DNA of 64,000 nt from Halorubrum xinjiangense (GTDB lineage: Archaea; Halobacteriota; Halobacteria; Halobacteriales; Haloferacaceae), in NCBI RefSeq assembly GCF_900102375.1, contig NZ_FNBO01000001.1, positions 1-64,000 on the forward strand, read 5' to 3'. Position 1 is the stretch's first letter. Every line of letters starts with the position of its first letter. Below the pieces are notes generated by a model. It made no database searches and was not told where the DNA came from. It saw only the letters and a list, made by a program, of their open reading frames with translations. Shown here in pieces: positions 7,189 through 61,588 of this stretch. The position numbers were made by a program, and so were the translations under genes.

Positions 7189-7514
7189 CGAACACCGCCA
7201 GAGCCCCAGCCGTTCGCTTATAAATCGGTAATAGTAGATCGACAGCGAACACCGCCAAAGCCCCAGTCGCGAGGCGGGCGCACGCTAGTTGCGCTCCTCA
7301 CTCGGTCGCTACGGCTCCCTCGTTGCGGTGCTTACGTCGCCTGCGCCCGCCTCGCGACTGCCCCTTTGAGTCCCGCCCCGCACAGCGACCGCAACCGCAC
7401 CTCACGCCTCCCCAGCGTCGTCGGCGGTCCTCCGCTTCGCTCCGGATCGCCGACTCCCTCGCGCGTGCGACTCACGGCCGCCTCCGGCGGCCGCTCGTCG
7501 GCACGCGCCACCGC
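7189..7514 (+). repeat. Dispersed structured element, copy A
   Basis: One of four related elements in the window. In its own direction it has two leader units 57 bases apart (CGAACACCGCCA at 7189 and 7246) with a TTATAAAT box between them. Next comes a 19-bp perfect stem with arms 7264-7282 and 7342-7360 and a 59-base loop. The core TTTGAGTCCCGCCCCGCAC follows, then a hairpin CGGCCGCC-TCC-GGCGGCCG at 7475-7493, and the end GGCACGCGCCACCGC at 7514. A TTTATAAGTGA lies just beyond. Frames across it are not conserved between copies. The rest of the gap to the M42 gene (7515-7683) holds only that gene's weak promoter region. Confidence 0.85.
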
Positions 7515-7683
7515 GGTGGTTTATAAGTGATTCTCGTTGCCGTTCATCGTATTTCCCTATCGCCTCGCCGCGACGAGAGTCGAGAACGGGACCTCGGCGG
7601 TGTCGATGACCCGGCTGTCGTCGAAGGCCGACGGCCGTGCCGGATCCTGCGGACCTTTGTCGCTGGCGCGGTCACGTCTTCGT

Positions 7684-10077: not shown

Positions 10078-10240
10078 GGTCGTCTCCGATCCGGGCCAAG
10101 GACAGCCCGGGAAAAAAGCGGCGTCGATCCGGCGGTCCGCGTGGGGTTATGGTTTCAGAGCGGAAAGGGATCGAGCCGACTCCACCAGGGGTTTCTTAAA
10201 AATTCGAGAGCGTTGGCGACGACGATTGATAGAAGACGAC

Positions 10241-10710
10241 GCGGTGGCGCGCGCCTGCGAGCGGCCGCCCTCGGCGGCCGCGAGGAGCACGCGCGAGGGA
10301 GTCGGTCGCCGAGCGAAGCGACGGCGACCGACGAGGTTGGGGAGGTAAGAGGTGCGGGGCGGTGCTGTGCGGGGCGGGACTCAAAGGGGCAGTCGTGAGG
10401 CGGTCGCAGGCGTTCACGAGAGCAAAGCTCTCGTGAGCCAATCAGAACGCTCCGCGTTCTGATGACGACGTAAGGACCGCAGGGCGGGAGCGAGCGAAGC
10501 GAGCGACCGAGGACCGCAGCGAGCGTGCGACCGCCTCGCGGCTGGGGCTTTGAAGATGTTCGTCGTCGATCTACAATCAGTTATTTATAAGCGAGCGGCT
10601 GGGGCTTTGGCGGTGTTCGCCGCCGATCAGCAGTCGAGTATTTATATGAGAACGGCTGGGTCTGTAGGGCGGCTTCGTCACCAGTTCGGTATAGCCTATA
10701 TATACACGTC
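10241..10710 (-). repeat. Dispersed structured element, copy B (reverse orientation)
   Basis: Read on the minus strand, this copy has leader units whose CGGCTGGG motifs (plus strand) sit at 10653, 10596 and 10539, exactly 57 bases apart, each with a TTTATA-type box. The long stem uses arms 10526-10544 and 10390-10408, pairing with G-U or single mismatches. Its loop holds two extra perfect hairpins, TCACGAGAGC-AAA-GCTCTCGTGA and ATCAGAACGC-TCC-GCGTTCTGAT (plus strand). The TTTGAGTCCCGCCCCGCAC core, a 9-bp GGCCGCC hairpin and the GCGGTGGCGCGC end at 10241 follow. The 633-bp gap around it shows no other gene. Confidence 0.83.
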
Positions 10711-12315
10711 TCAGTCGTGCCGGAAGCAGCGCGACCCGGTGAACGCCATCGCCATGTCGCGCTCGTCGGCCGCGGCGATCACGTCCTCGTCGTTGACAGA
10801 GCCGCCGGGCTGGATTATCGCCTCGATGCCGGCGTCGGCCGCCTCCTCGACGGCGTCCGGGAACGGGAAGAAGGCGTCCGAGGCCATCACGGCGCCTTCG
10901 GCGGACTTGCCCTCCGCGTCCTTCTCGGCCTTCATCGCGGCGAGCGTCACGGCGTCGACGCGGGACACCTGCCCCATCCCGACGCCGACCGTCTCGGTGC
11001 CGGTCGCGAAGAGGATGCCGTTCGATTTGACGTGTTTCAGCGTCTGCCAGGCGAACAGCATCGTCTCGACCTGCTCGTCGGTCGGCTCGCGCTCGGTGAC
11101 GACCTCCAACTCATCGGTTGTCGGCGACTGCCGGTCGCGCTCCTGAACGAGGCGACCGCCGACGACCGGTTTCTCGGTGAACCGCTCGGAGAAGCGGTCG
11201 TCGCCCTCGCCGAGCGGGCCCACGTCGAGCACGCGCAGGTTCTTCTTCTCCGTGAGCACGTCGAGCGCGCTGTCGGTGTAGCCGGGCGCGACGACGACCT
11301 CTTTGAACGAGTCGGCGACGGCGGTGGCGGTGTCGGCGTCGCACTCGCGGTTCAGGGCGACGATGCCGCCGAACGCCGACTTCGCGTCGGTGCGCAGCGC
11401 GCGGTCGTACGCGTCCGCGAGGTCCGAGCCGACCGCGCAGCCCGCGGGGTTCGTGTGCTTGATCACCGCGGCCGCGGGCTCGTCGAACTCCTTGACGAGG
11501 TCGAGGGCGGCGTCGGCGTCGTTGTAGTTGTTGTACCCCATCCCTTTCGCGCCGGGGTTCAGCTGGGCGGCGTCGACGACGCTCGCCTCCTCGCAGCCGT
11601 CGTCGACGTACAGGGCGGCGTCCTGATGGGGGTTCTCTCCGTACCGCAGCGAGGCGCTCCGCTCCTCGGAGACGAACCGTCGCTCCGGGAAGTCACCGCC
11701 AACGTCGCCCTCGACCGCGACGCGTTCTGGGCTCCCCTCGGCGTCGCGCTCGACGGTGACGCGGTCCTCGGCGAACCAGCGGACCGCCCGCGGGTACGCC
11801 GTGAACTCGGCCTCGCGGAGGACGCGCGCCTTCAGCGAGTCCGCGTCGTCGTCCTCGTACACCGGGATCGGCTCCTGGGTGACGACCGGGCCGGCGTCGA
11901 CCGCCTCGGTGACGACGTGGACCGTACAGCCGGTCGTGCGGACGCCCGCGTCCAGCACCTGCTCGTGGGCGTCCGTGCCGGGGAACGACGGGAGCAACGA
12001 GGGGTGGACGTTCAGCGTCGTCGGGACGGCGTCGAGGAACTCGTCGGTGAGCACGCGCATGTAGCCGTCGAGACAGACGAGGTCGACGTCGTAGTCGGAG
12101 AGGCGCTCGACGATCCGGCGCTCGTGCGACTCGCGCGACTCCCCCTCCTCGCGCTCGACGACCTCGGTCGGGATCCGGCGCTCGGTCGCGGCCCCCAACA
12201 CGGGCGCCTGCTCGCGGTTCGTCAGGACGACCGACAGCTCCGCCCCGCCGGGCGCGGCGTCGGCGATGTGTCTGAGGTTCCGTCCCCGGTTGCTCGCGAG
12301 TCCCGCGATCTTCAT
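10711..12315 (-). CDS. purNH: PurN-PurH fusion: GAR formyltransferase / AICAR formyltransferase
   Basis: This 534-residue protein joins two folate-dependent steps of purine synthesis. Residues 1 to about 195 are GAR transformylase (PurN), with the catalytic Asn102 and His104 in LNVHPSLLPSFPG and Asp140. Residues about 215-534 are the AICAR transformylase half of PurH, with the Lys286-His287 pair in IKHTNPAGC. The IMP cyclohydrolase domain that normally precedes it in bacterial PurH is absent; in haloarchaea a separate protein (PurO) is known to do that step. A TATA-like ATATAC about 25 bases before the ATG suggests a leaderless transcript. It diverges from purB. Confidence 0.93.
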   Translation of the reverse strand: MKIAGLASNRGRNLRHIADAAPGGAELSVVLTNREQAPVLGAATERRIPTEVVEREEGESRESHERRIVERLSDYDVDLVCLDGYMRVLTDEFLDAVPTTLNVHPSLLPSFPGTDAHEQVLDAGVRTTGCTVHVVTEAVDAGPVVTQEPIPVYEDDDADSLKARVLREAEFTAYPRAVRWFAEDRVTVERDAEGSPERVAVEGDVGGDFPERRFVSEERSASLRYGENPHQDAALYVDDGCEEASVVDAAQLNPGAKGMGYNNYNDADAALDLVKEFDEPAAAVIKHTNPAGCAVGSDLADAYDRALRTDAKSAFGGIVALNRECDADTATAVADSFKEVVVAPGYTDSALDVLTEKKNLRVLDVGPLGEGDDRFSERFTEKPVVGGRLVQERDRQSPTTDELEVVTEREPTDEQVETMLFAWQTLKHVKSNGILFATGTETVGVGMGQVSRVDAVTLAAMKAEKDAEGKSAEGAVMASDAFFPFPDAVEEAADAGIEAIIQPGGSVNDEDVIAAADERDMAMAFTGSRCFRHD

Positions 12316-23652: not shown

Positions 23653-23724
23653 TGGACTCGCGGGGATTTGAACCCCGGGCCTTCCCCGTGCCAGGGGGAT
23701 GATCTACCACTGATCTACGAGCCC
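23653..23724 (-). tRNA. tRNA-Ala (anticodon GGC)
   Basis: A 72-base tRNA folds cleanly on the minus strand. The acceptor stem is GGGCTCG with CGAGTCC, including a G3-U70 pair, the identity mark of tRNA-Ala. The anticodon stem TCCCC/GGGGA encloses CTGGCAC, giving anticodon GGC for GCC codons. The T arm is CGGGG-TTCAAAT-CCCCG and the discriminator base is A. There is no intron, and CCA is not encoded. Confidence 0.95.
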
Positions 23725-24456: not shown

Positions 24457-24865
24457 AGCTATAGCTTTTATAAATGGTTGCTGGTGGATCGGCGGCGAAC
24501 GCCACCAAAGTCCCAGCCGTTCGCTTATAAATGGCTGATCGCGGATCGGCGGAGAATACCGCCAAAGCCCCAGCCGGGAGGGCGGCGCACGCTCGCTGTC
24601 GTTCGAAAGGCGCTTTGCGCCTTTCGTCATGACGAGACGCCGGAGGCGTCTCGAACCACGCGCTTCAGTCGCTCACTCCGTTCGCTCCTTCCAGTGCTTG
24701 CGTCGCCTGCGCCGCCCTCCCGGCTGCCCCTTTGAGTCCCGCCCCGCACAGCACCGCAGCCTCACACCTCCCCAGCCTCGCGGCTCCCTCCGCTTCGCTC
24801 CGGTCGCCGCGTCCCTCGCGCGTGCTGCTCGGCCGCGGAGCGGCCTCACAGGCACGCGCCACCGC
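24457..24865 (+). repeat. Dispersed structured element, copy C
   Basis: Leader units with TTATAAAT boxes (near 24468 and 24523) and CAGCCG motifs at 24514 and 24571 are 57 bases apart. The long stem has perfect 19-base arms at 24571-24589 and 24708-24726, with a sequence different from copy A yet fully complementary. The loop contains two nested hairpins, CGAAAGGCGC-TTT-GCGCCTTTCG and GAGACGCC-GGA-GGCGTCTC. The core TTTGAGTCCCGCCCCGCAC, a GGCCGC-GGA-GCGGCC hairpin (24831-24845) and the GGCACGCGCCACCGC end follow, then TTTATAAGTGA. The remaining bases up to the ABC gene hold no other gene. Confidence 0.85.
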
Positions 24866-61149: not shown

Positions 61150-61588
61150 AGGAGGTCGTCAACGATCCGGCCGTCCACTTATAAATAGCCGGTGTAGGAT
61201 CGGCAGCTACGAGCGCCAAATCTCCGACCGCTTATTTATAACTAGTTGTTAGCAGATCAGCGGCGGACACTGCCAAAGATTCGGCCATTCGCTTATAAAT
61301 GAGTGACTGCGGATCGATAGCGAACACCGCCAAAGCCCCAGCCGCGAGGGCTCGGTGCGCTCGCTGCGCGCCTCGTTCGTTCGCTCCGCTCACTCACTGC
61401 GGTGCTTACGTCGCGCGGCTTCGCCCTCACGGCTGCCCCTTTGATTCCCACCCCGCACAGCGCCTCACGCCTCCCCAGCCTCGCCGCTCGCTCGGGGCTC
61501 CCTTCGGTCGCCCACGTCGCTCGCGGCGTCCCTCGCGCGCGCTCCTCGCGGCCGCCGCCGGCGGCCGCTCGCAGGCACGCGCCACCGC
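61150..61588 (+). repeat. Dispersed structured element, copy D
   Basis: Three leader boundaries (GCCAAA at 61215, 61272 and 61329) are exactly 57 bases apart, each with a TTATAAAT or TATTTATA box. The stem is 13 bp with one mismatch (arms 61339-61351 and 61423-61435); the rest of the arms has eroded. The core reads TTTGATTCCCACCCCGCAC, two changes from the others. A 9-bp hairpin GCGGCCGCC-GCC-GGCGGCCGC and the GGCACGCGCCACCGC end at 61588 follow, eight bases before the stop codon of the convergent PHP gene. Confidence 0.82.

Follow-up and report, generated by a model that had tools for sequence, protein, structure and literature searches.

A dispersed Halorubrum repeat is probably an IS5-type MITE family with a structured centre that outlasted the ends and with hairpins shuffled among copies

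The 64-kb stretch of Halorubrum xinjiangense DNA analysed here (the window) carries four copies of a structured repeat that we regard as belonging to a MITE family of the IS5 type, in which the structured centre outlived the ends and hairpins were shuffled between copies (probability about 0.64). A preliminary description of the window had proposed an undescribed non-coding RNA. That the element is structured, covarying, non-coding and distributed genome-wide was upheld, but its identity as RNA was not, given IS5-type ends and 8-bp duplications that match an IS/MITE family, a finding that the description itself had named as evidence against its proposal. The alternative it had mentioned, a structured DNA site, fits the data better than RNA.

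Anatomy and distribution of the repeat

Copies were recognised by a core, TTTGAGTCCCGCCCCGCAC, and an end, GGCACGCGCCACCGC. At up to 3 mismatches the core matches four times in the window, against 0.03 matches expected (7365-7383 +, 10367-10385 -, 24731-24749 + and 61440-61458 +). The last match has 2 mismatches. The end is present in all four, copy 2 having one mismatch; at 3 mismatches this 15-mer is otherwise not rare. Both the core and the succession of parts first described were recovered at the positions given, far above chance.

With the strand originally read taken as plus, the parts follow the order leader units, P1, core, linker, P2, TCCCTC, P3 and CACCGC, and the simpler succession given before, running from leader through long stem, core and hairpin to the end, is correct for every copy in the window. 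Their features are as follows.

Copy 1
7189-7256, plus strand: leader of two 57-bp units, the one complete and the other degenerate; CTTATAAAT at 7217-7225
7217-7249: leader unit motif
7257-7367, plus strand: P1 stem, AAAG[CCC]CAG...CTG[CCC]CTTT
7365-7383, plus strand: core
7384-7419, plus strand: linker, ending in CCTCCCCAGCGTC
7420-7454, plus strand: P2 hairpin (exchangeable)
7461-7508, plus strand: P3 hairpin, GCGCGTGC...GGCACGCGC
7509-7526, plus strand: end CACCGC and tail TTTATAA, the beginning of a decayed 3' inverted repeat
Copy 2
10552-10670, minus strand: leader, two 57-bp units
10383-10551, minus strand: P1 stem with an extra two-hairpin insert
10367-10385, minus strand: core
10301-10332, minus strand: P2 hairpin
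10241-10294, minus strand: P3 hairpin and end
Copy 3
24457-24563, plus strand: leader, two 57-bp units
24564-24733, plus strand: P1 stem with a two-hairpin insert
24731-24749, plus strand: core
24780-24811, plus strand: P2 hairpin
24818-24865, plus strand: P3 hairpin and end, followed by an TTTATAAGTGA tail
Copy 4
61178-61331, plus strand: leader, three 57-bp units (one diverged)
61332-61442, plus strand: P1 stem
61440-61458, plus strand: core, 2 mismatches
61483-61528, plus strand: P2 hairpin
61535-61588, plus strand: P3 hairpin and end

The leader is a 57-bp tandem unit that contains CTTATAAAT and is repeated 1 to about 5 times. The base of P1 reads AAAG-CCC-CAG...CTG-CCC-CTTT and encloses an inner part that is variable in length and content. 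The core overlaps this base, and the subsequent linker ends in CCTCCCCAGCCTC. The C-runs of the feet, the core and CCTCCCCAGCCTC, which are G-tracts on the minus strand, are 98-100% conserved at almost all positions, and the single strongly variable core base sits between two C-runs. A TTTATAA tail follows CACCGC in about half of the copies. Extra two-hairpin modules are present inside some P1 loops and in a few P2 or P3 hairpins, and the hairpin modules tested occur almost exclusively at element loci.

Several individual elements depart from this plan. In Haloparvum sedimenti (L082) the post-core linker is expanded and consists of ACCGCACAGC-like units in tandem. Leader units are amplified within single elements as near-identical tandem copies in L010, L009 and L162, and the amplified unit is without the TATA-like motif in L010 and L162. 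A P2 hairpin in L015 carries its inner part inverted, reading CCGGAGCGAAGCGGAGG where the common form reads CCTCCGCTTCGCTCCGG.

The expectation of many copies genome-wide was amply confirmed, since the organism's own genome (3.26 Mb) contains 120 core copies at up to 3 mismatches, whereas a reversed control pattern yields 1. When the core was searched for among Halorubrum genomes, as had been suggested, it was found in 47-48 of 51 same-genus genomes (2 mismatches), with very uneven copy numbers of 0 to 128 per species. The sister genus Haloparvum carries the core as an TTTCAGTCCC variant and Halobellus captivus has one clear copy (L141); from the remaining genera of the order the core is essentially absent. 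One Lachnospiraceae MAG (L122) also matches the core exactly but is missing the remainder of the element, and this match was taken as chance. No match to the repeat was found in viral contigs or phage records and only two weak matches were found on plasmids, and therefore it is not chiefly a viral or plasmid repeat. No published description of the Halorubrum repeat was found in the open-access literature.

Convergent predicted genes flank 72 of the 192 placeable copies and divergent ones flank 28, and the two tandem contexts hold 53 and 39; these are approximate counts, as genes were called with a simple codon model. Such a distribution is consistent with insertions being tolerated at gene ends and holds no hint of directional regulation. 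Among the copies listed on the G037 chromosome (up to 1.2 Mb), no strand bias is visible.

Termini and transposon origin

Following copies with longer tails outwards revealed the tail in inverted orientation on their 5' side, as well as terminal GGCTCTGTTGAAATCC-like repeats. Full-length copies span about 480-720 bp, have no transposase visible inside, and carry GGCTCTGTTGAAATCC-type inverted repeats at both ends (e.g. L311, L292, L101 and L220). Target duplications of 8 bp flank eight of these elements, with 7 of 8 bases matching in L324, L311 and L292 and 6 of 8 in L307, L220 (from the organism's own genome), L167 and L101; L326 also reaches 7 of 8, provided that its right end is moved by one base. 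At random, at least 6 of 8 matching bases are expected in about 0.4% of cases.

A search with one element end revealed that the same termini are widespread across the genus. Perfect 8-bp duplications border other Halorubrum elements with these ends (L258, L260, L266, L277 and L280), and in L255 and L259, the autonomous partner elements, the same termini accompany a DDE transposase gene. This transposase belongs to the IS5 family, as evident by a match to NCBIfam NF033579 at 219.6 bits (cut-off 140), and Pfam PF01609 is matched as well. An IS6-family origin, which had been suggested by GGCTCTGTTGAAA ends, was dropped because the transposase of the elements with matching ends belongs to the IS5 family; PF13610 matches are found without these ends.

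The five elements with perfect duplications are short and enclose unrelated DNA, and some of them hold small ORFs resembling passenger genes rather than a transposase. At L275:1500-2638, ends of the same type surround a 268-aa membrane-protein-like frame, with ACTGATCG and ATTGATCG as the 8-mers at its borders, and this element is possibly a passenger-gene transposon.

REP/BIME and the IS200/IS605-linked PATE are dispersed palindromic DNAs that are thought to be mobilised in trans. The Halorubrum repeat resembles them in both respects. However, those elements have hairpin ends and produce no duplication, whereas the family described here ends in inverted repeats flanked by 8-bp duplications and goes with a transposase of the DDE rather than the HUH type, and it therefore falls outside the IS200/IS605-type PATE/REP class.

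Taken together, the inverted-repeat ends, the termini shared with IS5 elements and the 8-bp duplications argue that the family is an old MITE. Most copies have lost these ends and kept a centre of three hairpins, which comprises P1, the core with its linkers, P2 and P3. Both ends are retained in only about a dozen sampled copies, and thus MITE descent is extrapolated from these to the rest. The four copies in the window have decayed ends without terminal inverted repeats, and their shared anatomy suggests that they descend from a full-length MITE whose ends were lost.

That the family is old is indicated by the closest copy pairs within the organism's own genome, which are about 83-89% alike, and by the many loci common to several species. 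No recent duplicate was seen when the copies of this genome were compared, and active movement is not evident; relatives were sampled at one genome per species, so that very recent events are invisible. At the locus of copy 1, the element is absent in several species and whole or partial in others, between flanks that are about 91-95% identical between species, a pattern characteristic of MITEs. The site of copy 2 (window 10157-10715) is variable: among relatives it is nearly empty in G007 (38 bp), the element is found in G016 and G021, and other species have different DNA there, often a substrate-binding-protein-like gene.

Stem covariation, strand and hairpin exchange

The preliminary description was correct that complementarity is kept despite sequence change. 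Scored at 13 P1 pairs, 60 distinct arms from the organism's own genome are 94.9% Watson-Crick, compared to 77.4 +/- 0.8% when the 3' letters are shuffled and 20-40% when the arms are slid, and double-change cells number 101 versus 24 +/- 3.7 in shuffles. Covarying base pairs of this kind are expected equally from a DNA hairpin and from a structured RNA, and folding is better than that of shuffled sequences on both strands.

The mismatches and loops are more discriminating as to strand and chemistry. Because G.U counts over all hairpins are blurred by register errors, we employed a strand-symmetric hairpin alignment, in which the non-paired positions read on the minus strand comprise 1341 G.A against 103 C.U. 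These positions are dominated by tandem GA/GA loops (397 cases) and by GGG opposite GGG at the P1 base, seen 148 times among 156 copies. For stems of at least 8 bp in the organism's own genome, 49 of 56 have a 3-nt loop; all 49 of these loops are closed by C-G, a closure found in 10 of 31 triloops from the background. Among the minus-strand tetraloops, 18 are GNYA and none is GNRA. In DNA, GNA and GNNA loops with a closing C-G pair have unusual stability, whereas RNA favours GNRA. The G-A pairs, the C-G-closed triloops and the lack of GNRA therefore argue for DNA, on the strand opposite to that first read. The structure proposed earlier thus stands, but its orientation does not, since the structural grammar lies on the other strand and the loops are DNA-like. 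A plus-strand RNA was rejected as the main reading because the mismatch types favour the minus strand.

Comparison of 37 orthologous element pairs reveals different levels of identity among the parts of the element. The P1 feet are 91-93% identical, the core 90% and P3 82%, and feet, core and linkers together range over about 77-93%, while adjoining intergenic DNA is 65% identical. Orthologous P2 hairpins are only 59% identical, which is no higher than the value for P2 of unrelated copies (62%; shuffled, 47%). Identical P2 hairpins occur in 0 of 31 orthologous pairs versus 130 of 10265 non-orthologous pairs, and a single 33-nt P2 is found at 13 loci in several species. Within the organism's own genome, mutual information among P1, P2 and P3 classes equals shuffled values, indicating independent assortment, and the two parts of P3 are associated with each other. 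In orthologous P1 pairs, changes on both sides that still pair outnumber one-sided changes by 82 to 28.

The simplest reading of these patterns, judged from sequence comparison, is that whole hairpins have been replaced between copies. If hairpins are replaced as whole units, the earlier reasoning that complementarity would be lost in selfish DNA no longer holds. Core identity is 0.928 within the organism's own genome and 0.938 across species, without drift of the consensus; these values are inflated because most copies were collected via the core, and a small tail-based collection, which still finds the core at most loci, removes this bias only partly. Near-invariant linkers and the absence of consensus drift point to selection on both linkers and core, either for the exchange itself or for some role in the host.

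We propose that the unit under selection would be DNA of the strand opposite to that first read, which would fold, once single-stranded or extruded next to its AT-rich TTTATAA flanks, into hairpins with tandem G-A pairs and with triloops closed by C-G. Template switching or gene conversion could then replace entire hairpins among dispersed copies, with the near-invariant linkers perhaps serving as short homology for the exchange. Such exchange, together with selection on linkers and feet, may maintain the family without IS5 transposition.

Alternative explanations and related systems

It is conceivable, if rather unlikely, that Halorubrum operates a dedicated single-stranded DNA hairpin exchange, in which linker-bounded cassettes at about 100 copies would be cut and pasted or template-switched. 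Should this doubtful scenario hold, hairpins would change loci faster than they mutate, by a logic akin to that of folded recombination sites.

We consider it unlikely that the repeat is a structured non-coding RNA family of about 280 nt, transcribed from TATA boxes in the leader of each copy. Such RNAs would explain the strong covariation and the sequence constraint at orthologous loci, and on the strand first read CTTATAAAT precedes P1 by about 31 nt, a normal spacing for archaea. This promoter-like spacing suits the plus strand, yet the G-A pairs and the loops sit on the minus strand. The main point for RNA is that G.U exceeds A.C by 72 to 28 in the P1 outer arms read on the minus strand; however, triloops dominate among the loops and GNRA tetraloops are absent, orthologues exhibit wholesale replacement of P2, and the copies are not clearly biased in orientation with respect to neighbouring genes. 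Moreover, Rfam, in which a known family would also have spoken against a new RNA, gives nothing at the element at the gathering threshold or at E values up to 1. The sole Rfam match of the window is a tRNA gene at 23653-23724 (-).

An ordinary decaying MITE, whose complementarity stems from quasi-palindrome correction or gene conversion and whose centre is unselected, is quite improbable. It shares with the preferred reading the terminal repeats and target duplications, it is consistent with enrichment at the 3' sides of genes, which is typical of tolerated insertions, and block rewriting is expected to yield the observed excess of double over single changes in stems. Neutral conversion also predicts drift between species, however, and the core is as similar across species as within one genome. 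The contrast between feet and core (90-93%) and adjacent intergenic DNA, and the strong strand asymmetry of mismatch types, likewise tell against an unselected centre.

Very unlikely, finally, is a MITE-derived DNA architecture or recombination site that serves the host, such as a K+-stabilised G-quadruplex and hairpin scaffold: haloarchaea hold molar KCl inside, and the conserved minus-strand G-tracts and the facing GGG runs at the base of P1 would suit it, but the range of copy numbers between species implies that the element is not essential, the G037 copies lack visible strand bias, and both quadruplex and folding are predictions from sequence.

Haloarchaeal MITEs are known, for example as families in Haloquadratum walsbyi (PMC3119063). 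The favoured IS5-type MITE family is like these (PMC3119063) in being transposase-free and intergenic, with inverted ends matching an autonomous element, a duplication of fixed length and presumed mobilisation in trans. Unlike them, it has a centre of three covarying hairpins and near-invariant linkers, its hairpins assort independently, and most copies keep this centre without ends. The BOX, RUP and SPRITE repeats of Streptococcus pneumoniae (PMC3049150) are similarly high-copy, modular and intergenic with predicted stem-loops; BOX also has internal tandem modules in variable number, and RUP has IS-like terminal repeats. Their sequences are unrelated to the Halorubrum repeat, whose tandem module is the 57-bp TATA-containing leader and whose hairpin sequences appear to be exchanged, beyond mere changes in count. 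Hairpin-forming repeats of sponge mitochondria (PMC2800124) are also intergenic DNA hairpins that are spread over the genome with variable structure and composition, whereas the present family resides on an archaeal chromosome as a larger three-hairpin composite whose full-length copies bear clear IS5-type ends.

For annotation, the family accounts for a large set of Halorubrum intergenic repeats. It also serves as a caution that covariation in dispersed repeats is no proof of RNA, because DNA hairpins swapped as units mimic it. Hairpin replacement is directly readable in its natural copies, which number in the hundreds and span dozens of species, and the rate and mechanism of chromosomal hairpin exchange become testable. 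If its hairpins are indeed swapped, this family would be an unusual natural record of DNA hairpin exchange within a genome.
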